This document shows, piece after piece, positions 641-17,015 of a DNA stretch of 17,015 nucleotides. Each line of letters starts with the position of its first letter. Positions within the stretch are counted from its first letter, which is position 1. The stretch is from positions 1 to 17,015 of the forward strand of contig MGQK01000028.1 of NCBI GenBank assembly GCA_001797815.1, given 5' to 3'. The notes under the pieces are model-generated. The model saw only the letters and a list, made by a program, of their open reading frames with translations. It searched no databases and was not told the origin of the DNA. A program made the translations under genes and the position numbers. This DNA comes from Deltaproteobacteria bacterium RBG_13_61_14 (lineage in GTDB: Bacteria; RBG-13-61-14).

Positions 641-3445
641 TCAACTATCGTCCCCATCCCGCCGCCGGCCCAACCTGACCACCAGCAAAGCCAATCCGCT
701 CGCCAGCAGCATCCACAATCCGATCCGAAACGACCAGGGCTGATAGAAGAACGTGATTTCGGTCTCCCCGGCCGGGACCGGCAAGGCGCGGAGCGCGAGA
801 TGGCCGGGGTAGATCCGCGTCTCTTTCCCGCCGATGGCGGCCTTCCAGCCCGGGAAATACTGGTCGGAGAGCACCAGGAAAGCCGGCCGCGGGCTTTGGC
901 AGTAAAGCTTCACCCGGTCCGGGGTGTATTCCGAGATCAGCATGCGGGAAGGGAGTTGCTTCAAATCCTCGGGCACGGTTTTGGGCCAGGGGAACTCGAT
1001 CTTTTGGGTTAAAAGCACCTGGCTTGAGAAAAGGTCCGGCACCTCGTCCGCCAGCATGGCGAAATTGCGCGCCTGCTCGGCCGGAGTGTCGCCGGGCAGG
1101 ACCGCGGAGCCCATGACCAGGAAGGCGCGGTCTTTGGCCTGATGATTGACGTAAAGAGCCACCAGGTCAAAATCCTCGGCGGTCCGCTCAAAGCCCGGCC
1201 AGTTGACCTGGGGATGGTAAAGCCGGAGCCCGGACCAGGCCAGGAGATTCGATTCGCTTGGTCCCAGGGGTCCGGGCAAGGCCAAGAGCCGCAGGCGGCT
1301 TGCGGCGAGCTCCATTCGGCCCGAGCTCATGCCGAGGGCAGTCGAGCGGGGCAAAGGCTGCTGATCAAAGATCGGCTCGGTCTCGGCCATGATCCAGCGG
1401 CCCCTGTTGTTATCGCGGACCGGGTCCAGGTAGCGCCAGTAAAGCGGGCGAAAACCGGGGCCCAGAGTCATGCCGGCCCAGATCCCGCGGCGGGGGTTGG
1501 AAGCCGGCGAAGCTCCGGTTCCGGGTTCTTCCGCGCCGGGCGCCCCGATCAGAAAGCGGATGGTCCGGCCCTGGGCCTGACCCAACCCTGCCTCCAGGAG
1601 GTCGGGCGCATGGTGGAGCACCGCCTGGCGCGAGGTCCGGCCCAGGCTCATGGGAAGGTGCCGCATCCAGCCGGCAAAAGGACCGATTTCGATGCCCTCT
1701 TCGATCAGGCGCTGGGCTAAAGGCTCGGACCCGATCTCATTTTCCAGCGCCACCCCGACCACGTTGGCGACGTCCAGCAAAGGAGAGGTCCAGCGGTCCT
1801 TTTCGATCTGGAAAAGCATGTGCTGGTCATAATGCTGCCGCGCCTGTTCCGGGCTGAGGCCGTTGAGCGCACACATATAGGTAACGTAGCTTTTCGGATA
1901 CAAGGGGTCATAGGCGCGCAGGTCCGCCACCCGCTGGGGAAGCAGGAGGTTGGGAAAGAAAAGGTCCTCTTCCCCGGTGACCCGATAGGTGCCGCTCTGG
2001 TCCAGGAAGTTGATCGCCTTCAACTGGAAGATCCGATCGTCCTCAAACACCGGCCGGTTGCCGCGAAAATCCTGGAACAAGCCCCAGGCGGTAATCACGA
2101 GAAAGGCCGCGCTCACCGCCCCTGGCGGCATCAAGCCCCTTCGGCCCAGGGCCAGCGCGAGCGCCGCGGCTGCGAGCAGGGCCGCGGCCTGGATCATGCT
2201 GCTTTGGGCGCCAAAGCCGAAAAAGGGGTAAAAGCCGTTGAGCAGGGCCGCGACCAGGTTGGCCACCGCCCACACCAGAATCAGCGCCCCGGCGGCCAGG
2301 GAGAGCCTGGGGTTTTTTTCTTGGAGGACGCGATCAAGGCCTCGGCCGGCCAGGAGGGCGACGGCCAGAGCCAGGATGGGCGCGGCGTATTTGTCGTTAT
2401 AGGTCACGGAGAAAGGATAGAGATGCCCGAGGAGATGGAAAGGGGGAAGGCCGTAGGCAATCCCGGCGCTGAAAAGGGCGACGGCGAAGAAAAATAAAGG
2501 CCGGGGACCGAGCCGGGGCAGAGCCAGCGCGGCCCGCAGCGCGAGCACGAACGGGACCAGGCCCAGGGCCGGGATCAGGAACGGCACCAGGGTGCTGAGG
2601 GCGTTGTCGCCGAAGAACCAGGGCAGGATGAGCGAGACCGCGTAAGCCAGGTCGCGGTGGCGCACTCCGGCCGCCGGATCGTGATAGGTCCAGGCGTGGG
2701 CGAGGTATTCGGCAAAAGGCAGCCATTGGGCCGCGGAAAGGAACAAGCCCAGGCCGAGGCTTAAGCCCAGCGCGACCAAACCGGGCCTGAACTTCCTGCG
2801 GCGAAGGATCTCGAACAGGTAGTATGAGACCACGAGGCTGAGGGCATAGAGCGTGGCTTCGGGAAAACCGCCGGCCACCAGGAGGAAAACGGCCAGCCCG
2901 GCGCTGAGGCTAAGGCTAAAGCCGGGCCTTTGCGCCAGGCGGTGGAAGATAAAGAGGGTGAGCGGCAAGAGCGTCTCCACGTTGAGGTGGGACATATACA
3001 GGTAGCGGGTGAAGTAACCGCAGAGCATGAAGGCGAGGCCGGAGAGGAGCGCGGCGCTTTCGCTTGAGCGCAGGGCTTGGCGGGCGAAGAGGAAGGCAAA
3101 GAAGCCGGCCAGCCAGAGCCGGATCAAGAGGACCAGGTCGGCCGCGGTCCAGAAGCCGAGCAGGTATTTCAGCCATTGGAGCGGAAAGAGCGGGGCGGAC
3201 TGCATGTTGGCCAGGTGCGGGAGCCCCAGGGCGTTATAAGGGTTCCAGAGCGGGAAGTGACCGCGAGCCAGCTCCTGGCCGCTGAATTCATCCCAGGGGT
3301 AAAATCCATAGATGTTGGTGATGTCCTGGATCACGCCGGTGAAAAGGAAGTGCCCGGACAAGAGCATCGGGCCGTAAAAAACCAGCAGGACCAAGACCAG
3401 GATCAACCCGGCCCGGGTTTTCTCCCGAGGCGGCCGGCTAGGCAT
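641..3445 (-). CDS. YfhO-family multi-span membrane protein (second gene of pair)
   Basis: Predicted 934-aa inner-membrane protein of the YfhO family (GT-C-like polytopic proteins; Firmicute members are implicated in glycosylation of lipoteichoic acid). An N-terminal helix (about residues 13-31) is followed by the family-typical outer segment RGHFPLWNPYNALGLPHLAN (61-80) and QSAPLFPLQWL, then many hydrophobic segments to about residue 480. A large soluble region comes next, and the C-terminus holds the family pattern SDQYFPGWKAAI (from about 861), a Y/F-x-P-x-x-F-R-x-G motif and a last helix before an Arg-rich tail. I chose the ATG at 3445, not the first possible start at 3682: it has GGAG six bases upstream, overlaps the upstream stop by 8 bp as in translational coupling, and drops 79 residues that are only the other gene read in another frame. 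The glycan substrate is unknown. Confidence 0.85.
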   Translation of the reverse strand: MPSRPPREKTRAGLILVLVLLVFYGPMLLSGHFLFTGVIQDITNIYGFYPWDEFSGQELARGHFPLWNPYNALGLPHLANMQSAPLFPLQWLKYLLGFWTAADLVLLIRLWLAGFFAFLFARQALRSSESAALLSGLAFMLCGYFTRYLYMSHLNVETLLPLTLFIFHRLAQRPGFSLSLSAGLAVFLLVAGGFPEATLYALSLVVSYYLFEILRRRKFRPGLVALGLSLGLGLFLSAAQWLPFAEYLAHAWTYHDPAAGVRHRDLAYAVSLILPWFFGDNALSTLVPFLIPALGLVPFVLALRAALALPRLGPRPLFFFAVALFSAGIAYGLPPFHLLGHLYPFSVTYNDKYAAPILALAVALLAGRGLDRVLQEKNPRLSLAAGALILVWAVANLVAALLNGFYPFFGFGAQSSMIQAAALLAAAALALALGRRGLMPPGAVSAAFLVITAWGLFQDFRGNRPVFEDDRIFQLKAINFLDQSGTYRVTGEEDLFFPNLLLPQRVADLRAYDPLYPKSYVTYMCALNGLSPEQARQHYDQHMLFQIEKDRWTSPLLDVANVVGVALENEIGSEPLAQRLIEEGIEIGPFAGWMRHLPMSLGRTSRQAVLHHAPDLLEAGLGQAQGRTIRFLIGAPGAEEPGTGASPASNPRRGIWAGMTLGPGFRPLYWRYLDPVRDNNRGRWIMAETEPIFDQQPLPRSTALGMSSGRMELAASRLRLLALPGPLGPSESNLLAWSGLRLYHPQVNWPGFERTAEDFDLVALYVNHQAKDRAFLVMGSAVLPGDTPAEQARNFAMLADEVPDLFSSQVLLTQKIEFPWPKTVPEDLKQLPSRMLISEYTPDRVKLYCQSPRPAFLVLSDQYFPGWKAAIGGKETRIYPGHLALRALPVPAGETEITFFYQPWSFRIGLWMLLASGLALLVVRLGRRRDGDDS

Positions 3446-6107
3446 GGCCGTCTCCGGAAGAAGGCGTGAGGCATGAGGCCTGAGGCCTGAGGCCGGCGGC
3501 ATGAGGCGTTGGGCTTCCGGCGCGAGGCTTGAGGCCAAGGAAAAAGACCAAGAGAAGAAAGAACAAACAGGTGAGGCTGACCCAGAGCCCGATCCGAAAG
3601 TCCAGGGGCTCAAAGCGAAACTGCACCGCGTGTTTGCCCCGGGCCAGAACCACGCCGCGAAAAGCGTAATCCGCCCGAACAATCCGGGATTCCTCCCCGT
3701 CCACCCAGGCCCGCCAGCCGGGATAGGCGGCGTCGGCCAGGACCAGGAGACCCTGGCTCGCCCGGCGGACTTCGAGTTCCACCCGGTCGGGTTTGTAGCT
3801 CAGCAACTCGACCTTGCCGCGGTCGCCGGGATAGCCTTGGACCAGAACACCGGTTGCGGTGACGGTGGCGGCTTCTTTCAACTGCTCGACCGACAAGGAC
3901 CCGAGGATGGGAAGTTCTTGCTCGGGAGTAACAGCCAAACTTCGGCTCACGGAAAAAGCGCGGGGAAAGGCGTCAAGGATCTGGTTTGCCTGCACGGTCC
4001 CCTGGTCCTGGTCTAAGAGGGGGACCGAAGGGAAGGCAACGGCTTCCTGCGCCGGAGCCGCGGTCAGCTCGATCCAGCCGGGCCAGTCGGCATCGCGATT
4101 GTTTTTAGGGCCGGGATCAGTGGCCAAATGCAAGGCGCTTTCTCGGCCGGGGTCCGAGGTCAGCGAAAGATCGAACCGAGTCATGGAAAGGGCATGGCGC
4201 GCCACGAACCGGGTGAACAGGAGTTTTGCACCGCTGGAGCTTTCGCGCCAGAGATAAAAATTGGCGCCGTCTGAATTTTTGTCCCAGGCCAGCAGGGAGG
4301 GAGTGAAGCGAAGTCGGATATCCGATTCTCTCCAGGGGAGGCGATAATCCAGGCGGGAGGGTGGATGCTGAAAGAGGGAGGGCCCGCGAAGCTTCTGGGG
4401 CGGGGTCACTCCATAAACGCCTGAGCTATGGTAGAGGATCTGTTCCATGATCTCTCCGCGCAGGAGCTCTCGACGTCCAACCGCGAAGCGAATCCCCATC
4501 AGTGCGGCCAGGGGCCGAAGCAGGCGCTCGGGCGAGGGCTGGGTATAGTAACTGGGATAAAAATAGTGGACGGCCTGGTCCCCCTCCAGGCCATTGAGGC
4601 GGTTGAGCAATTCCAGGTACGGCCGGTAAAAGAGGGCATCGGAGCTCCGCAGGTCATCGAGGCCGAAGGCGAGGGCGAGGTTGGGGGGGAAGAAGCCCTC
4701 GAGTCCGGTGATCCGGAACGGCCCGGAAACGGCCTGCTCTTGCTGGAGGTAATTGAGGTAGGGCGCTTTCTTGAGGTCGCGGGTGCCGAGTTCGATATAG
4801 GGCTTGACCTCGCGGGCATGATAATAGAGGTTGCCGAGCAAGGCCAGGAGCAAGAGCGCGGCCAGGGCGGGACGCAAGGCGCCTCTTCGCGCCGGGCCGG
4901 AGGCACGGGGCAACAGGGTTTCCAGGCCAAAGCCGGCCAGGATGGCAAAAGCCAGATGGATTTCGGAGAAATAAAACTTGAAGTTGGAAGCCAGGTTGAA
5001 GACCGGCAGGAGCGCGATCAGCCGGAAGCCCGGAAGTCCGAAGGTGAGGCCGAGGAGCAAGGCGAGAATGGCGGCGAAGAAAGCGGCGGCGGGATTAAGG
5101 CGGCGGAGCCGGCCGAGGGCGAGGAGGACGAAGAGCATGGGAAGCAGGCCCAGGCCCGGGGGCACGCCGGGCACCGCGGTCTCGCGGTAGCCGGAGAAGA
5201 GGAGTCCGAGGGTGCCGCGCTCCAAGACTTGGAGCGGGATGCCGGAGGGCTGGTCGGCGAAGATCCGGTGGATCCCGGGCCAGAAGAGGTTGAGGATGCC
5301 CCGGGCTTCGAGGTGGAAGAAGCCGAAGCCAGGGGCATGCAAGGACCAGCAGCGGGTGAGGTAATTGGCAAAGGGGAGCAGCGCGGCCCCGGCCAGAAGC
5401 ATCCCGATCAGCCCGGCCGCGGCCAGGGGTAAAAAGGCGGAAAGCCGGGTCCGGGACCTGGCGGCGAGGAAGATCACGTAGAGCCAGGCCAGGAAAAAGG
5501 TATTGAAAACCGCTTCCGGATGGCCGCCGAGGATGACCAGGGCCGAGAGCAGGCTGGAAGCGGCCATCAGGGAAGCCCGCCGCAAGGTGAACATTTTTGC
5601 CCAAACCAGCATCAAAAGAGGCAGGAGCATCTGGGAGTTTAAGTCCACGAGTTGCAGAAACCAAAGACCATAGCCGCCGAGAGCGTAGAGCAGGCCGGCG
5701 GCCAGCGCGCCGCTAAAACCCTCGCCGGCGTTTTTCCCCAGCACAAAAACAAACGAGGCGGCCAGGATCAGACGGAGCGCCAAGACCAGGTCTTGGGCCA
5801 GGGGCGAGGTCAAGAGGGCCCGGAGCAGCCAGAGCGGGAAGAAGACCGCGGTTTGAAGGTTAGCCAGGTGGGGCTGGCCCAGGGCGGTGTGAGGGTTCCA
5901 GAGCGGGAAGTGGCCGCGGAGCCACTCGGAAGAGGAAAAGGCGTTCCAGGCCCACACCTGCAGCACGCCGGCAGGATCCACCCGGGGCAAGACGGAAAGG
6001 GCGCCGGGAGAGGAAAGCTCGGGGAGAAGGAAGACCAGGACCGCGCCTCCCAGGAGGGAGGCGGCGAGCCAAAACTCTTTCGGCCGCAATGGCGGAAAAG
6101 GGGGCAC
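3438..6107 (-). CDS. YfhO-family multi-span membrane protein (first gene of pair)
   Basis: Predicted 889-aa paralogue of the next gene in the operon. Shared marks are an N-terminal helix (about 13-29), the motif RGHFPLWNPHTALGQPHLAN (64-83), roughly a dozen hydrophobic segments in the first half, an extracytoplasmic region, and the C-terminal pattern DAAYPGWRAWVDG (about 792-804) followed by FEPLDFRIGLW and a last helix. The start is a GTG at 6107, the only usable start before an in-frame TAA just upstream; the ribosome site is weak. The last about 30 residues (from about 859, rich in P, A, S) are translated from a 7-bp tandem repeat and look accidental. The stop overlaps the next gene's ATG, so the two are probably one transcript and may work as a pair in envelope glycosylation (inference from family). 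Confidence 0.85.
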   Translation of the reverse strand: MPPFPPLRPKEFWLAASLLGGAVLVFLLPELSSPGALSVLPRVDPAGVLQVWAWNAFSSSEWLRGHFPLWNPHTALGQPHLANLQTAVFFPLWLLRALLTSPLAQDLVLALRLILAASFVFVLGKNAGEGFSGALAAGLLYALGGYGLWFLQLVDLNSQMLLPLLMLVWAKMFTLRRASLMAASSLLSALVILGGHPEAVFNTFFLAWLYVIFLAARSRTRLSAFLPLAAAGLIGMLLAGAALLPFANYLTRCWSLHAPGFGFFHLEARGILNLFWPGIHRIFADQPSGIPLQVLERGTLGLLFSGYRETAVPGVPPGLGLLPMLFVLLALGRLRRLNPAAAFFAAILALLLGLTFGLPGFRLIALLPVFNLASNFKFYFSEIHLAFAILAGFGLETLLPRASGPARRGALRPALAALLLLALLGNLYYHAREVKPYIELGTRDLKKAPYLNYLQQEQAVSGPFRITGLEGFFPPNLALAFGLDDLRSSDALFYRPYLELLNRLNGLEGDQAVHYFYPSYYTQPSPERLLRPLAALMGIRFAVGRRELLRGEIMEQILYHSSGVYGVTPPQKLRGPSLFQHPPSRLDYRLPWRESDIRLRFTPSLLAWDKNSDGANFYLWRESSSGAKLLFTRFVARHALSMTRFDLSLTSDPGRESALHLATDPGPKNNRDADWPGWIELTAAPAQEAVAFPSVPLLDQDQGTVQANQILDAFPRAFSVSRSLAVTPEQELPILGSLSVEQLKEAATVTATGVLVQGYPGDRGKVELLSYKPDRVELEVRRASQGLLVLADAAYPGWRAWVDGEESRIVRADYAFRGVVLARGKHAVQFRFEPLDFRIGLWVSLTCLFFLLLVFFLGLKPRAGSPTPHAAGLRPQASCLTPSSGDGHA
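3464..3533. repeat. Heptanucleotide tandem repeat inside coding sequence
   Basis: Ten consecutive 7-bp units with consensus GCNTGAG on the plus strand (GCGTGAG, GCATGAG, GCCTGAG twice, and variants) sit in the 3' end of the first YfhO gene, about 20 bp upstream of the second gene's start. Three units make seven codons, so the encoded tail shows loosely repeated PHA/RPQAS-like residues. The units in the middle (GCCGGCG, GCGTTGG, GCTTCCG) are the most decayed. Confidence 0.85.
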
Positions 6108-8777: not shown

Positions 8778-10034
8778 ATGCCGGCTGCCAAAAAGAAAAT
8801 CAAGGCCCTGCTCATGGGCTATAACGGGGAGAACAATACCGGCGCCGAGTCGCGCCTGGTCACCATCGCCCGCGATGTCCGGGAAGTGTTCCAGAGCCAG
8901 AACCTGGATCTGGAGGCGGTGGTGCTGACCGCGGCCAATGCCCGGCGCTACCTCAAGGACCCGGAGGTGAAGATGGTGGAGATCGGGAGGCCCGGCCAGC
9001 TCTGGAAGGTGCTCCAACTCACTTTTGAGCCTTACGATCTGTTAATCCTGGTGGAAGGCTCCACTTTCACCGACCACTTCTCGCCCTTCCTGCTCTACAT
9101 GTTCCTGCTCGGCGCCTGGATCCACTCGTTCAAACCCGGGAAAAGCGTGGCCTACGCGGTGGACGCTTTAGAGATGAGGGAATTCAACAAGAAGCTTGCC
9201 CGCTACGTGGGCAACAAGATTGATCTGATCATCACCCGCAACGAAGACGCCCGGGAGCGGCTCCAGGCTTGGGGGATCACCCAAGACATCCTGGTCACCA
9301 CCGACACGGCATTCCAGTATCAACCTCCGCCCCGGGAACATACCGACCGGCTTCTGGAACGGTTGCAGCTGGACCCGAAAAAGCCGTTGATCGGGCTCGC
9401 TTTCAAGGAGTTTTTCTGGTGGCCGGTGAGCCCCAAGCTATGGGGCCCGAAAGAGGACCTTTACCGCTTCTGGCCGCTCTACCACACCTGGGACCCGGGC
9501 GACAAAGAGAAGAGCATGGAGATGAAGGGCGTCTGGAGCAACTACGCGGACTGGCTGGTGGAGAAATACGATGCCAATATTCTCTGGATCGCCATGGAGC
9601 GGATGGACTTCCCGCCTTCGCGGGACGCTTGCCTGCTCATGGAGCACAAAGACCGGGCCCGGCTGATCCCCAGCAATGACTTTGACCTGGATGACATCAC
9701 CGGGCTTTTGTCCCGGCTCCAGCTCCTCTGCAGCACCCGCTACCACGCCGGCGTGCTCTCCATGGTTTCCAGCATCCCGATGCTGGCGGTCTCCCACGAC
9801 ACCCGGATCGAGAGCCTCTACAAGGAAATCGTCCATATGAAATTCTACATTGACTACCAGACCCCGGACCTGCTCCGGCGAATGCGGGAGCGGACCGAGG
9901 AGTTGCTCGGGGCCGAAGCCGCGGTGCGGGCCAAGATCCGGGGAGCCTATCCCCGTTACCTGGAATTGTGTTTGCAAAACCGAAAGATATTGAAGGAGTG
10001 GTTCAGCCGGGAATTCTGGCCCTTGTCCAACTGA
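8778..10034 (+). CDS. Polysaccharide pyruvyl transferase-like protein 1
   Basis: Predicted 418-aa soluble protein. The fold assignment to the polysaccharide pyruvyl transferase family (PF04230, two-lobed, GT-B-like) rests on an N-terminal GYNGENNTGAESR (14-26) resembling the family's GxGNxGDE-like start, a middle VEGSTF...AYAVDA, D/ITR, and a C-terminal CSTRYHAGVLSM...IPMLAVSHDTRI (318-344). Classical members carry a GGG in the position of VEGS (92-95). A FKEFFWWPVSP block (209-219) is shared with the next gene. Members typically add pyruvate ketals from phosphoenolpyruvate to sugars, but some have other donors. I chose the ATG at 8778 because GGAG lies eight bases upstream; the first possible start, a TTG at 8700, has no ribosome site. 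Substrate unknown. Confidence 0.75.
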   Translation: MPAAKKKIKALLMGYNGENNTGAESRLVTIARDVREVFQSQNLDLEAVVLTAANARRYLKDPEVKMVEIGRPGQLWKVLQLTFEPYDLLILVEGSTFTDHFSPFLLYMFLLGAWIHSFKPGKSVAYAVDALEMREFNKKLARYVGNKIDLIITRNEDARERLQAWGITQDILVTTDTAFQYQPPPREHTDRLLERLQLDPKKPLIGLAFKEFFWWPVSPKLWGPKEDLYRFWPLYHTWDPGDKEKSMEMKGVWSNYADWLVEKYDANILWIAMERMDFPPSRDACLLMEHKDRARLIPSNDFDLDDITGLLSRLQLLCSTRYHAGVLSMVSSIPMLAVSHDTRIESLYKEIVHMKFYIDYQTPDLLRRMRERTEELLGAEAAVRAKIRGAYPRYLELCLQNRKILKEWFSREFWPLSN

Positions 10035-10086
10035 AGCCAGGATCACCCGGAAGCAGTCTCGTTTTTGGCCCGGAAGGAGGCAGGCG

Positions 10087-11598
10087 ATGTTAGAATTTTT
10101 CCGGAAATGGCGACAGATCCCCGATTTCACGCACACGGCCAACTTTTTTGACGTGCTCTATGGGATCATCGGGTGGAGCCTGGTGCAGGTTTTGGGTTAC
10201 GGGGTGAGGTTCCTGGACCTGTTCGGCCTGGGCCTGAACCGGAAATGGAAGCCGGGGGAAAAGCTCCAGGTTCTGTTTCTGGCTTACTCCGGGGCGCGCA
10301 ACACCGGGGCCGAGGTGCGAGTGGCCGAATGTATTGACCAGGTGAACCAGGTCCTGGGCGAAGACGCGGTGGATATCAACATGACCACCCTCAATTTGGA
10401 GGAAGCCCAGGAATATTTCAAGCACAACAAGGTAAACCTCATGCCCATGAACTACGTCTTTTTCTGGGACGTGTTCAAGTTCGTGCTCAAAAACCACATG
10501 GTCGTGCTGGTCGAAGGCTCCTGCTGGAAAGAAAACTTCGCCGCGGCCCTGCTCCTCTTTTTCCTCTACGGCGTGGGTCTGGCCGAAAAGCTCGGCAAAC
10601 CTTCTTTCTCTTATGCCGTGGACGCCGGGCAGATGAACAAGTTCAACAACTTCCTCTCCTGGAACCTGAGCAAGGGCATGACCCGGCTCATCACCCGCAC
10701 CCAGCCGGCCAAAGAAGTGCTGGAAAAAATCTTCCTGCCCGGCGCCATTGTCCGGGTGGACACCGCCTGGACCTTGCGGCCCAACCCGCCGGATTGGGGG
10801 ATCGCGACCCTGAAGAAGCTCGGGTGGGACGGACAGAAGCCGCTGGTGGGCCTGGCCATGCAGAACTTCTTCTGGTGGCCGGTGATCCCGGACTTTGTGC
10901 GGTTCCTCAAGGGCGACAAGGAATACAACTACCGCCTCATCTACTATTACGACTACGATGAGGAGGACAGGAAAAAATACCAGAAATGGGCCGCCATGCT
11001 GGCCGGCCTGATGGACTGGGTCACCGAGAAGTATCAGGTCCAGCCGGTCCTGGTGGCGATGGAGGCGCTGGACGAAACCTCCTGCAAGGATGTCATGGCC
11101 CTGATGAAACACCAGCCCCTCCTGGTCTCCTGCAATCAATTTGTGGGGGTGGAGATCGCTTCCATGCTGCGCAACTTACACCTGCTGGTCACCACCCGCT
11201 ATCACGCCATGGTGCTTTCCATGCCCGGGCTGATCCCGTTCATCGGGCTGTCGCGGGACGAGCGCATCCGGGGGGTCATGCTCGAGACCAAGCTTTATGA
11301 GGACTACTATGCGGACTACTCGCGGGACGACCTGCCCGAATTGCTCCGGCAAAAGGTGAGTCGGTTGATGGAAGACCAGGCCGAGCGCGAGCGGATGAAG
11401 AAGATCATCCGCGAATGGCTGCCCTATTATTTTGCCCAGATGGCGCGCCTGGGCCTGGATATCCGCAAGATCGTCCAGGAATGCTTCCCGGCGCTCAAGC
11501 TCAAGCCCCTGGATGAAAACGACCCGGCCCAGCTCGAGCCGTTTGTCCCGCCCGAGCTTAAGCAGGACATCCGGAAAAAATATCTGGAATTGAACTAG
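10087..11598 (+). CDS. Polysaccharide pyruvyl transferase-like protein 2, N-terminally extended
   Basis: Predicted 503-aa paralogue of the preceding gene, 52 bp downstream, with an excellent ribosome site (AAGGAGG, six bases before ATG). Shared marks: AYSGARNTGAEVR (66-78), LVEGSCW (141-147), SYAVDAGQMNKFNN, LITRTQPA, NFFWWPVIP (260-268), EKYQVQPVLVAME and TTRYHAMVLSM (369-379) with SRDERI. It differs by about 57 extra N-terminal residues, including a hydrophobic or amphipathic stretch (about 23-50) that could anchor it to the membrane. An acidic, Tyr-rich insertion (around 279-295) replaces the loop of protein 1. Two diverged copies side by side suggest sequential or heteromeric action on one glycan or lipid; this is inference. 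Confidence 0.75.
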   Translation: MLEFFRKWRQIPDFTHTANFFDVLYGIIGWSLVQVLGYGVRFLDLFGLGLNRKWKPGEKLQVLFLAYSGARNTGAEVRVAECIDQVNQVLGEDAVDINMTTLNLEEAQEYFKHNKVNLMPMNYVFFWDVFKFVLKNHMVVLVEGSCWKENFAAALLLFFLYGVGLAEKLGKPSFSYAVDAGQMNKFNNFLSWNLSKGMTRLITRTQPAKEVLEKIFLPGAIVRVDTAWTLRPNPPDWGIATLKKLGWDGQKPLVGLAMQNFFWWPVIPDFVRFLKGDKEYNYRLIYYYDYDEEDRKKYQKWAAMLAGLMDWVTEKYQVQPVLVAMEALDETSCKDVMALMKHQPLLVSCNQFVGVEIASMLRNLHLLVTTRYHAMVLSMPGLIPFIGLSRDERIRGVMLETKLYEDYYADYSRDDLPELLRQKVSRLMEDQAERERMKKIIREWLPYYFAQMARLGLDIRKIVQECFPALKLKPLDENDPAQLEPFVPPELKQDIRKKYLELN

Positions 11599-11643
11599 GC
11601 GGCCCAGGATGCCACCACCCAGGATGAGCCGCAGGAGCGCGCC

Positions 11644-12660
11644 ATGACCATCTCGGCCAAAGAACGAGACAACCTGTTGCGCTGGGACGGGAAGAAACCC
11701 GGCCATTACGAGGTTTATTACCTCAAATGGAACGATCTCGTTAGCCGCACCGCCGGCTGGATCCGTTACACCCTCACCTCCCCCCTGCCGGCGGCGGGCG
11801 ATCCTTACTGCGAGCTGTGGGGAATGTTCTTCGACATGGATCAGCCGGCCAACAACTTCGCGGTCAAGAATCGCTTCCCCATCCAAAGTCTGGTCTGGGA
11901 TCAAGACCGCTTCCGGGTCCAAATCGCCGACGCCGAGCTTTGCCAGACCTCCTGCCGCGCCTCCATCACCGACCCCGAGAAAAAACTCTCGATGTCCTGG
12001 GACCTCACCTTCGATTCGCCAACCCCGACCCTGTATTACTTCCCTTCGGAATTTTACTACCAGAGCCGTAACCCCAAGACCAAGTCCCTGGTCCCCCACC
12101 TCGACGCGCGTTTCCACGGCACCGTGGTCGCCAATGGCCGCGAGATCAAGCTCCGCGACGTCCCCGGCCTCGAAAACCACCTCTGGGGCTCCGAGCACGC
12201 TCTCCGCTGGGCCTGGGGCCATTGCAACGCCTTCTCGGAAGATCCCTCCGCGGTCTTCGACTGCATTGATTCCCAGTTGAAAATCGGGCCCTGGGTCAGC
12301 CCTCACATGAAGTTCTTTTACATCAAATTTCGCGGCAAGGAATACGTCCTGAACCAGCCCTGGCATTGGGCCTTGTGGCACCGGAGCCAATGGGAATTGG
12401 GCCGCTGGACTTTTCAGGCGCGCTTTCCCGGGCTCCGGGTTCAAGGCGAGATCAAAAGCCGCTTTGAGGAATTGCTGGCCATCACCTACATGGACCCGGA
12501 CGGCAAACTCCTCTGGTGCAACAACAACACCGCAGGTTCCATCAAACTTTCTCTTTTCGATCTTTCCGGCAAAAGCCTGGGCCGACTCACCAGCGACGGG
12601 GGCTGCACCGTGGAGTTTGTGGACCGCAAGACCTATCCGCAAGTGCCGGTGCGCCTCTGA
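11644..12660 (+). CDS. CrtC/AttH-like (lipocalin-fold) protein of unknown function
   Basis: Predicted 338-aa protein with no signal peptide or membrane span. The pattern matches what I know of the hydroxyneurosporene synthase/AttH/tocopherol-cyclase-like superfamily: HYEVYYLKWND near the start (21-31), ELWGMFFD (57-64), SWDLTF (118-123), a short-chain motif ENHLWGSEHALRWAWGHCN (177-195), and many alternating beta strands rich in W, F and Y. Members bind or hydrate hydrophobic isoprenoid-type molecules; no carotenoid genes are nearby. It follows the transferase-like gene by 45 bp with GGAG before the ATG, so it is probably cotranscribed. A role in binding or modifying a lipid carrier or hydrophobic product of the cassette is possible but inferred. 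Family call moderate, function unknown. Confidence 0.6.
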   Translation: MTISAKERDNLLRWDGKKPGHYEVYYLKWNDLVSRTAGWIRYTLTSPLPAAGDPYCELWGMFFDMDQPANNFAVKNRFPIQSLVWDQDRFRVQIADAELCQTSCRASITDPEKKLSMSWDLTFDSPTPTLYYFPSEFYYQSRNPKTKSLVPHLDARFHGTVVANGREIKLRDVPGLENHLWGSEHALRWAWGHCNAFSEDPSAVFDCIDSQLKIGPWVSPHMKFFYIKFRGKEYVLNQPWHWALWHRSQWELGRWTFQARFPGLRVQGEIKSRFEELLAITYMDPDGKLLWCNNNTAGSIKLSLFDLSGKSLGRLTSDGGCTVEFVDRKTYPQVPVRL

Positions 12661-14292: not shown

Positions 14293-14583
14293 CTATCGGC
14301 GATCTTTCCAGGTGTCGGGGTGTCGGTGCAAGTGCATGACGGCGAGGATCAAGATGCTGTCAGGCTCGATGCTGTAGAGGACGCCGTAAGGGAAACGGTG
14401 GACGAAGCAGCGGCGGATATCGCCTTCGAGGATGGGCCAGGCGTTCGGGTAAGCGGCGATATTTTGCGCGGTGGAGTAGACTTCCAGCGCGAATTCTTCT
14501 CCCAGTCCGGGTTCGCAATCTTCATAGTATGAGATTGCCTCGAGGTATTCCGCTTCGGCCTCGAGATGAAACGCGAATTTCAT
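14293..14583 (-). CDS. ParE/RelE-type toxin of a type II toxin-antitoxin system
   Basis: Predicted 96-aa small basic-cored protein of the RelE/ParE superfamily (PF05016). The pattern is typical: FHLEAEAEYLEAISYYEDCEPGLGEEF at the start, a middle WPILEGDIRRCFVHRFPYGVLYSIE, and the end ILAVMHLHRHPDTWKDR. The conserved Arg-rich strand (RRCFVHRFPYG) and the final HxxRxPxxW-like segment are intact. Superfamily members either cleave mRNA at ribosomes or poison DNA gyrase; sequence alone does not say which. Its ATG overlaps the antitoxin stop by 4 bp, so antitoxin is made first from one transcript. Confidence 0.9.
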   Translation of the reverse strand: MKFAFHLEAEAEYLEAISYYEDCEPGLGEEFALEVYSTAQNIAAYPNAWPILEGDIRRCFVHRFPYGVLYSIEPDSILILAVMHLHRHPDTWKDRR

Positions 14584-15024: not shown

Positions 15025-15095
15025 GATGAGGTCATGAAGCGGTCGGACCGGATCAAATTTTGGGGAGCGGATCAAGCTCCTTTATCCATGTTCCC

Positions 15096-16097
15096 ATGCT
15101 AGTCGAGAGCCGCGCGCCCAACCGGATCCTGGACTTCGGCGGCTGGACCGACACCCACTTCGCCGGCTCGGGCAAGGTGGTCAACCTGGCCGTCACTCTC
15201 TTCGCCCATGTCACGGTGGCGACTCGCGCCGAGCCGGGAGTGACCATCCACATCCTCGACTACGGCGACCGGATCGAGCTCGCCGACGTGGTCCGCGAGC
15301 GCTACGGCACCAAGCACGACCTCTTGCTGGCCGCGCTCAAGCGGATGCAGATCCAGACCGGGCTCGACGTTTACATTACCGCCGACGTGCCCCCCGGCTG
15401 CGGCACCGGCAGCTCCGCCGCCATCACCGTGGCGCTGCTCCAGGCCCTGGCCCTGATCGCCGGAAAAGCCCTGGTCCCGCACGAGCTCGCCCGCCTGGCC
15501 CATGCCATCGAGACCGAGGAGCTCCAAAACGAGTGCGGGATCCAGGACCAGATCGCCTCCGCCTACGGCGGGCTCAACTACATTGACATGTTCGAATATC
15601 CCTTGGCCCGGGTCTCGCCCATCCCCATCGCCTCCCCGGCGCGGCTGGCGCTCGAAAGCCGGCTGCTTTTAGTTTACGAAGGCGCCGGGCATTTAAGCTC
15701 GGACGTGCACCGGGCGGTGATCGAGAGCCTGAGCCGGCCGGAAAGCAAAGTGCGCGAGCTCCTGGTTAAATTGGCTGATTGCGCCGACCGGGCCAAGGAC
15801 GCGCTCCTGCGCCAGGACCTGGAGGCGCTGGCCCGGACCATGGACGAGAACAACTCCTTGCAGAAGGCGCTCCACCCGGGCATCACCACGCCCCGGCTCG
15901 AGCGGATCGAGGCGCTGGCCCGGGAGCGAGGCGCGAAGGGAGTGATGATCAACGGCGCCGGCGGAGGCGGGAGCATCACCTTGCTTTGTGCGCCGGGATC
16001 GCGCTCGGTGGTGGCCCAGGCGCTCCGGCAGGAGGGCTTCCGCATTCTTCCTTTTGTCATCTGCCCCGAGCCGGCCCTGGCCTGGGTGGCCGGCTGA
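15096..16097 (+). CDS. GHMP-family sugar kinase, heptose-phosphate-kinase-like
   Basis: Predicted 333-aa cytoplasmic kinase with all three GHMP motifs: SRAPNRILDFGGWTDT (5-20) in the sugar-binding start, the ATP loop VPPGCGTGSSAA (98-109), and INGAGGGGSITLL (285-297). GIQDQIASAYGGLNYID (148-164) is typical of the HddA-type (D-glycero-alpha-D-manno-heptose 7-phosphate kinase) and related fucose/galactose kinases. It phosphorylates a sugar at the anomeric carbon in relatives. The ATG at 15096 fits the family start; a TTG at 15060 adds 12 odd residues, and neither has a clear ribosome site. Heptose phosphate as substrate is likely but not proven. Confidence 0.85.
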   Translation: MLVESRAPNRILDFGGWTDTHFAGSGKVVNLAVTLFAHVTVATRAEPGVTIHILDYGDRIELADVVRERYGTKHDLLLAALKRMQIQTGLDVYITADVPPGCGTGSSAAITVALLQALALIAGKALVPHELARLAHAIETEELQNECGIQDQIASAYGGLNYIDMFEYPLARVSPIPIASPARLALESRLLLVYEGAGHLSSDVHRAVIESLSRPESKVRELLVKLADCADRAKDALLRQDLEALARTMDENNSLQKALHPGITTPRLERIEALARERGAKGVMINGAGGGGSITLLCAPGSRSVVAQALRQEGFRILPFVICPEPALAWVAG

Positions 16098-16263: not shown

Positions 16264-17015
16264 CTAATACTCCTTCCACTTCTTCCCCCACTTCGTCTCC
16301 ATGAACTCTCGGATCACCCGCTTGCCCTTGGTCGGGTACCAGAGGTAGTCGTGGAAGAAGTAGGACCCGAAGACGAAGAAATAGACGAGCGGGGTGTGGA
16401 AGAAGAAGTGCTGGAACCGGCTCAAGGGCCCCCACCAGAAGGGCCGGATAAAGGCGGTGGCGGCATTGTCGCCCACCGAGAAGTTCCAGCGCTCCCTGGC
16501 CGCGTCGGCGTCGCCCACGATCTCGATCTCGGAGAGGATGCCGGTGCCCAGACCCCGCTCGGTCGCCAGCCGGATGTAATCCAGCTTCATCGGGTCAAAG
16601 CCCATCATGCTCGCGCTTACCGCGTCAATCGCCACCTGGTCGCCCGAGGCCAGGATCACGTCTTTGAGATGGGGCGTCATGGTCCGCGGGCCCGGGCCGG
16701 ACCCGGCCACGGTCCCGTCCATCACCGCGAACAGGCCGGAATGGATCTCCTTTTGAATGGCGAGCAGGTCCACCAGGGTCTCGTGGATCCAGGTGTGGGT
16801 GTAGTGCCGCTTGGTGTTGAGCAGTCCGCCGAAGGCGTTCTTCATGGCGCCGGTGGTGCCGGTGTAAACGTGGCACTTCATGGTGGGCAGGTGCACGATG
16901 TTTTTGCCCTTGAAAAAGTCCGGGATATGGATGCCCTCGGGATAAATCTTGGGCAGCACCAGCATCTCCGCCTCCGGCTGAAACCGCACCCACTCCATGT
17001 CCTCCCGCCGGAAGT
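16264..17015 (-). CDS. DUF362 protein, N-terminus outside window
   Basis: At least 250 codons of a DUF362-family (PF04015) protein; the frame is still open at the right edge. Diagnostic text includes HLPTMKCHVYTGTTGAMKNA, FGGLLN, and then GLFAVMDGTVAGSGPGP, ILASGDQVAIDAVSASMMGFDP and DYIRLATERGLG, which match the family core. No cysteine pairs for iron-sulfur clusters appear in the visible part, although some relatives carry a ferredoxin domain. The C-terminal 70 residues are aromatic and basic (FFFHTPLVYFFVFGSYFF, then a basic tail) and may contact a membrane. Function of the family is unknown. It converges on the GHMP kinase with 166 bp between stops. Confidence 0.85.
   Translation of the reverse strand, partial: FRREDMEWVRFQPEAEMLVLPKIYPEGIHIPDFFKGKNIVHLPTMKCHVYTGTTGAMKNAFGGLLNTKRHYTHTWIHETLVDLLAIQKEIHSGLFAVMDGTVAGSGPGPRTMTPHLKDVILASGDQVAIDAVSASMMGFDPMKLDYIRLATERGLGTGILSEIEIVGDADAARERWNFSVGDNAATAFIRPFWWGPLSRFQHFFFHTPLVYFFVFGSYFFHDYLWYPTKGKRVIREFMETKWGKKWKEY

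Follow-up and report, generated by a model that had tools for sequence, protein, structure and literature searches.

The known role of pyruvyl transferases is the modification of sugars. The locus described here raises the question of what two of them, encoded side by side, may act on. It lies in a stretch of 17,015 nucleotides, hereafter the window, that is part of contig 28 (MGQK01000028.1) of Deltaproteobacteria bacterium RBG_13_61_14, whose genome is 4.7 Mb long and 95% complete. Genes 1 (8778..10034) and 2 (10087..11598) encode PF04230-type transferases of 418 and 503 amino acids, and gene 3 (11644..12660) follows on the same, plus, strand. A sequence-only reading of this DNA had proposed that the three genes form a small cassette devoted to a lipid-linked or hydrophobic product. 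The answer that we favor, with a probability of roughly 45%, is that genes 1 and 2 would be phosphoenolpyruvate (PEP)-dependent transferases that have come to act, at the membrane, on a hydrophobic acceptor derived from a fatty acyl. Ordinary glycan pyruvylation is the main rival.

A Family Apart from CsaB

Both proteins pass the PF04230 gathering score (25.3 bits), gene 1 with 58.7 bits and gene 2 with 30.1 bits, and both fall far below the cut-offs of CsaB (TIGR03609; 81.7 and 50 bits vs 213) and of the colanic acid pyruvyl transferase WcaK (27.9 and 13.2 bits vs 399). These scores bear out the earlier description of a pair of transferase-fold paralogues unlike the textbook members. The two proteins are 34% identical to each other and are the sole family copies found in the window genome. 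For the family of TRANSFERASES, the gene 1/2 alignment was run once against 84,980 species genomes, which returned 80 loci with 24-41% identity to gene 1. The best curated model for every family member is CsaB. Together with the PF04230 membership, this speaks for glycan pyruvylation, in which genes 1 and 2 would put pyruvate ketals on two sugars of a surface polymer or of a lipid-linked oligosaccharide, gene 3 being unrelated; the distance of the scores from the CsaB and WcaK cut-offs speaks against it.

A maximum-likelihood tree of 98 proteins, CsaB-type controls included, sets the family apart from these controls with full support and divides it into two subfamilies, A and B. Gene 1 belongs to an 8-row subclade of subfamily A (99% in the Shimodaira–Hasegawa-like approximate likelihood-ratio test, SH-aLRT), and gene 2 to a 5-row subclade of subfamily B (100% support). 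A lineage-specific tandem duplication was considered as the origin of the pair and rejected: a tree that forces both window-type groups into a single clade has a p-value of 0.015 in the approximately unbiased test (p-AU), for a group that was named after the tree had been seen. The tree split and this rejection imply that the pair is not a recent tandem copy. As judged from the tree, the pair unites two lineages of old standing, each drawn from a different ancient subfamily and far from CsaB. Both nest within the family, and each adjoins one clade whose members lie in the ligase-reductase clusters described below.

Donor-Site Residues Kept, Acceptor-Site Residues Replaced

In CsaB, R148, H308 and K328 are required for PEP, and the sugar acceptor is contacted via Y14 and F16; the K328R mutant is active, and the Y14A mutant is dead (PMC10435577). 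These positions were mapped onto the family through a profile alignment and the YYGF motif, and conservation was read over 88 family rows. The PEP residues S88, R148, R306 and H308 (CsaB numbering) are invariant in all readable rows. In gene 1, R148 corresponds to Arg154 (9237..9239), a position that is Arg everywhere except for one unreadable X, and R306/H308 correspond to Arg321-Tyr-His323 (9738..9746). The equivalents in gene 2 are Arg204 (10696..10698) and Arg371-Tyr-His373 (11197..11205). K328 is replaced by Arg in 88/88 rows, as Arg343 in gene 1 (9804..9806) and Arg393 in gene 2 (11263..11265), the very substitution that leaves CsaB active.

The acceptor side looks different. Nearly every row has Asn or Ser at the Y14 position, and the F16 position mostly holds Ala, Val or Glu; this family-wide replacement argues against glycan pyruvylation. 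An aromatic insertion that is specific to the family, and has no counterpart in the CsaB profile, starts in gene 2 with FFWWPV (10867..10884; Trp in 83/88 rows, Pro in 88/88); it is a candidate acceptor-site element. Further invariant residues are, in gene 2 numbering, E143, D225, P265, M325-E326, D329 and D391. Altogether, the residue pattern has the look expected of a change that conserves the donor and switches the acceptor: the donor pocket seems to be retained, and the sugar pocket altered.

Fold and Probable Membrane Attachment

Sequence searches for relatives of solved structure found none. The AlphaFold model of gene 2 (pLDDT, the predicted local distance difference test score, of 95.6) displays a glycosyltransferase-B (GT-B) fold. 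Its best structural matches are UDP-GlcNAc 2-epimerases, BshA, PimA, MurG and other GT-B enzymes, with Z-scores up to 23.5; the yeast Pvg1p structure is absent among the matches listed. Since the top matches are nucleotide-sugar enzymes, the GT-B fold alone cannot choose between PEP and a nucleotide sugar. These matches are what would be expected if genes 1 and 2 were GT-B glycosyltransferases moving a nucleotide sugar onto a lipid acceptor, the PF04230 match then reflecting merely a shared fold, and weak Glyco_transf_4 matches in 5/53 members point the same way. Such a role is nevertheless quite improbable, given that PF04230 itself is matched by 52/53 members and that the residues of the PEP site, as known from CsaB and Pvg1p, do not vary (PMC10435577).

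The gene 2 model also contains a hydrophobic N-terminal helix (residues 20-45, 10144..10221), a probable membrane anchor. Most of subfamily A, gene 1 included, lacks such a hydrophobic extension, which characterizes subfamily B: the median N-terminal extension is 56.5 amino acids in B vs 22 in A, with a peak hydrophobicity of 0.51 vs 0.07. With a helix typical of its subfamily, gene 2 probably acts at the membrane.

The Company Kept by the Relatives

An indication of the acceptor comes from the neighbors of the relatives. An AMP-ligase and/or fatty-acyl-reductase gene lies within 1.5 kb in 54/75 family loci vs 0/12 CsaB controls. Among the 70 loci with usable flanks, 47 carry a ligase-reductase fusion and 7 a split form. 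The usual order is the transferase, directly followed by a fusion of ~920 amino acids combining a fatty-acyl-reductase (NAD_binding_4) and an AMP-ligase, then by a protein of ~200 amino acids and a GMC oxidoreductase, the last being found in 26/30 fusion loci with enough downstream DNA. The ~200 amino-acid protein is helical and ATC_hydrolase-like. This cluster occurs in gut bacteria and methanogenic archaea (loci L029-L065 and L071-L101). Its hosts belong to the Bacillota, Bacteroidota, Chloroflexota, Spirochaetota, Thermotogota, Atribacterota and three archaeal phyla, a distribution based on metagenome-assembled genomes (MAGs) in which single records may be misbinned. The split form comprises a HAD-reductase protein, a second reductase, the transferase, an AMP-ligase, an enoyl-CoA hydratase-like protein and a second AMP-ligase; it is found in Planctomycetota, Acidobacteriota, Gemmatimonadota and others. 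One Myxococcota cluster also has acyl-carrier protein, lipid-kinase-like and acyltransferase-like genes, these three recognized by eye. A literature search restricted to open-access papers found no published description of the ligase-reductase/transferase/GMC cluster.

Because the closest relatives, in many microbes of gut and sediment, adjoin enzymes that activate or reduce fatty acids, the product that genes 1 and 2 modify is probably fatty, not sugary. The earlier idea of a hydrophobic product thereby gains strong, if indirect, support by ancestry. That these clusters consist of fatty-acid enzymes and not of glycosyltransferases is a further argument against glycan pyruvylation, although dTDP-rhamnose genes do lie ~4 kb from the gene-2 orthologue in locus L066.

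To note, gene-1 orthologues in three loci (L023 3127-9263, L024, L025) are found after a thiolase, a phenylacetate-CoA-ligase-like gene (by eye) and a 602 amino-acid short-chain dehydrogenase/reductase (SDR) with a C-terminal 4Fe-4S domain.

A Proposed Role in Lipid Modification

A plausible scheme would be as follows. Genes 1 and 2 would be old, separate CsaB-like branches that still bind PEP, the sugar-acceptor pocket having been exchanged. They would move a pyruvyl group, as a ketal or an enol-pyruvyl, from PEP onto a hydrophobic, fatty-acyl-derived acceptor at the membrane. The N-terminal helix would tether gene 2 to that site, and gene 1 would be its soluble partner or act on a neighboring step. 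In most relatives the adjoining ligase-reductase would supply a fatty aldehyde or alcohol, with the GMC oxidoreductase alongside. In the window lineage both subfamilies are present without an adjoining cluster, and the acceptor would therefore be made elsewhere. Gene 3, if involved, may bind or alter the hydrophobic intermediate.

Several observations weigh against this scheme. The window has no ligase-reductase neighbor, and the window genome has no ligase-reductase fusion, just unfused AMP-ligases and weak reductase-like matches. The GT-B fold suits nucleotide-sugar enzymes, the top structural matches, equally well. The mapping of the acceptor residues derives from docking and mutant data for CsaB rather than from a crystal structure of CsaB with its acceptor. 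The link of gene 3 to the transferases consists of two loci. Finally, YfhO-type genes lie near the window transferases: two long YfhO-family membrane proteins are encoded on the minus strand at 641-6107, their called reading frames overlapping at 3438-3682. The YfhO family is GT-C-like (glycosyltransferase-C-like) according to the literature. A GHMP kinase is encoded at 15060-16097; its nearest curated relative is D-glycero-D-manno-heptose 7-phosphate kinase (114.9 bits, under the cut-off of 600). The earlier statement that no glycan cluster surrounds the genes holds only roughly in view of these YfhO proteins and this heptose-kinase-like protein, all of which favor glycan pyruvylation. With the acceptor-site changes and the neighborhoods of the relatives set against them, we regard pyruvylation of a glycan as rather unlikely here, though a serious contender.

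Transfer of the pyruvyl group to a fatty-acyl-derived acceptor may extend well beyond this genome. It is a tentative but real possibility that genes 1 and 2 represent a cross-domain family, undescribed so far, whose PEP transferases modify fatty-acid-derived lipids, with a cluster conserved in Prevotella, Lachnospiraceae, Chloroflexota and methanogens and yielding a pyruvylated or enol-pyruvyl-derived lipid. A deep, widely distributed branch with a retained donor site and an altered acceptor site, accompanied in gut bacteria and methanogens by a fatty-acid ligase-reductase, would point to an uncharacterized lipid pathway, testable in culturable hosts. The likely automatic annotation of these genes as CsaB or polysaccharide pyruvyl transferase would be corrected accordingly.

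Comparison with Characterized Systems

Three known systems place the family in context. With CsaB, it shares PF04230, the GT-B fold by profile, and the PEP-binding Ser/Arg/Arg/His set. It differs from CsaB by the Arg in place of K328, the replaced Y14 and F16, the FFWWPV insertion and scores far under the cut-off; moreover, most relatives lack a sugar-polymer setting.

ChtnH of chitinimine biosynthesis sets a precedent for the action of PF04230-type enzymes on a lipid/polyketide chain (PMC13291983). ChtnH and the megapolipeptin pyruvyl transferase, associated with products of the polyunsaturated fatty acid (PUFA)-synthase-like type, are likewise PF04230-type enzymes and are proposed to put pyruvate onto an alkyl-chain diol (PMC13291983), a likeness drawn from their description. 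Unlike the window genes, ChtnH sits within a polyketide synthase (PKS)-nonribosomal peptide synthetase (NRPS)-PUFA cluster.

With ElbD of the ether-lipid operon elb (ElbA-E) of Myxococcus, the clusters of the relatives share the logic of a fatty-acyl reductase combined with an acyl-ligase. ElbC is the one Elb protein without known function in a review of the system (PMC9131029). The transferases were considered as ElbC counterparts, and this is ruled out because ElbC is LarA-like: in a Myxococcaceae genome (L134 3369-12175), the operon encodes a HAD protein, a Lar_N protein, a reductase-ligase-carrier-acyltransferase and an SDR, and ElbC is the Lar_N protein (LarA N-domain, PF09861, 121 bits). 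The elb operon thus differs from the relatives' clusters in its other genes (HAD, the LarA-type ElbC, SDR) and has no PF04230 protein; a search of this Myxococcaceae genome with gene 2 gave no match.

Gene 3 and the Integrity of the Cassette

The three open reading frames are real and correctly placed on one strand, as described before, with spacers of 52 bp between genes 1 and 2 and 45 bp between genes 2 and 3. An AGGAG-type ribosome site stands immediately 5' of each gene, and neither a plus-strand terminator-like site nor a sigma-70-like or other promoter-like site was found in the gaps between them. Genes 1-3 may lie on one transcript.

Gene 3 encodes a protein of 338 amino acids whose C-terminal half matches the tocopherol cyclase family (Tocopherol_cycl, PF14249) with 37.3 bits, above the gathering score of 26.6; PF14249 is also matched by 18/23 gene-3 homologues. 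The previous CrtC-like label has to be abandoned in favor of PF14249: gene 3 has no match to CrtC (hydroxyneurosporene synthase) at E up to 1, and none of the 23 homologues has one at E up to 0.01. Tocopherol cyclase itself acts on a prenyl-lipid. The likeness of gene 3 to the family is above the Pfam cut-off and lends no support to a cyclase activity; the protein probably binds a hydrophobic ligand or modifies it. No close relative of solved structure was found by sequence, and the fold model, built from two sequences only, has a pLDDT of 39.

Whether the cassette is conserved was addressed in other genomes. Genes 1 and 2 lie next to each other in two genomes of the same order as the window genome (G001 and G002). 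Gene 2 shows full-length identity of 68% in G001 and is 75% identical over a 165-residue fragment in G002; gene 1 is ~40% identical. Gene 3 was not found anywhere in either genome; both contigs stop at or inside gene 2, so that gene 3 was possibly lost in an assembly gap. In G002, a nucleotidyltransferase/HEPN-like gene pair (by eye) is observed between genes 1 and 2 (L016 2252-3024). Nine further genomes were reached via the relatives. Three of them have genes 1 and 2 together, as divergent neighbors in G205 and unlinked in G206 and G207, the gene 2 of G206 being more distant (37% identical). The two genes co-occur in six genomes of the lineage and are adjacent in four.

Gene 3 behaves differently. 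It is present in 34/386 genomes (~9%), nearly always in single copy, and the several kb of DNA flanking it in 24 other loci yielded no transferase, the gene caller having missed gene 3 itself in 3/24; its neighbors vary from locus to locus. Among the nine further genomes only G212, a Myxococcota MAG, has gene 3. There (L067), the gene-2 relative ends at 9332 and the gene-3 relative starts at 9325, an 8-bp overlap. The chance expectation of such an adjacency is ~0.003 in 76 loci, a rough, after-the-fact estimate. No second genome with all three families was found among the order-mates, the nine further genomes and the gene-3 loci, and the full triple is private to the window genome. The gene 2-gene 3 order was seen once more, in L067, and this pairing may recur, if rarely. 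With the gene-3 homologues scattered in this way, the idea of a small common cassette largely gives way.

These data also bear on a more restricted proposal, that genes 1-3 are a true dedicated operon gained or assembled in this lineage, making one small hydrophobic metabolite that gene 3 would cyclize or carry. The short gaps, the ribosome sites, the missing terminator and the distant Myxococcota pairing are all in its favor. Such an operon is nonetheless unlikely: the order-mates have genes 1 and 2 with gene 3 undetected, the other gene-3 loci have no transferase at hand, and the third-position C/G of gene 3 deviates (0.53/0.26 vs 0.42-0.44/0.39-0.41). By analogy with its family, gene 3 would be compatible with a hydrophobic product of the transferases, and is just loosely tied to the pair.

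Other Features of the Window

No plasmid-borne copies of gene 2 and no PHROG matches were found. A ParE-type toxin-like gene (PF05016, 32.8 bits) is located on the minus strand at 14293-14583. A DUF362 gene occupies positions 16264-17013 of the window, and in a Thermoplasmata MAG (L028 5160-9931), a gene-1 relative is directly followed by a DUF362 protein and an unassigned protein of 559 amino acids.

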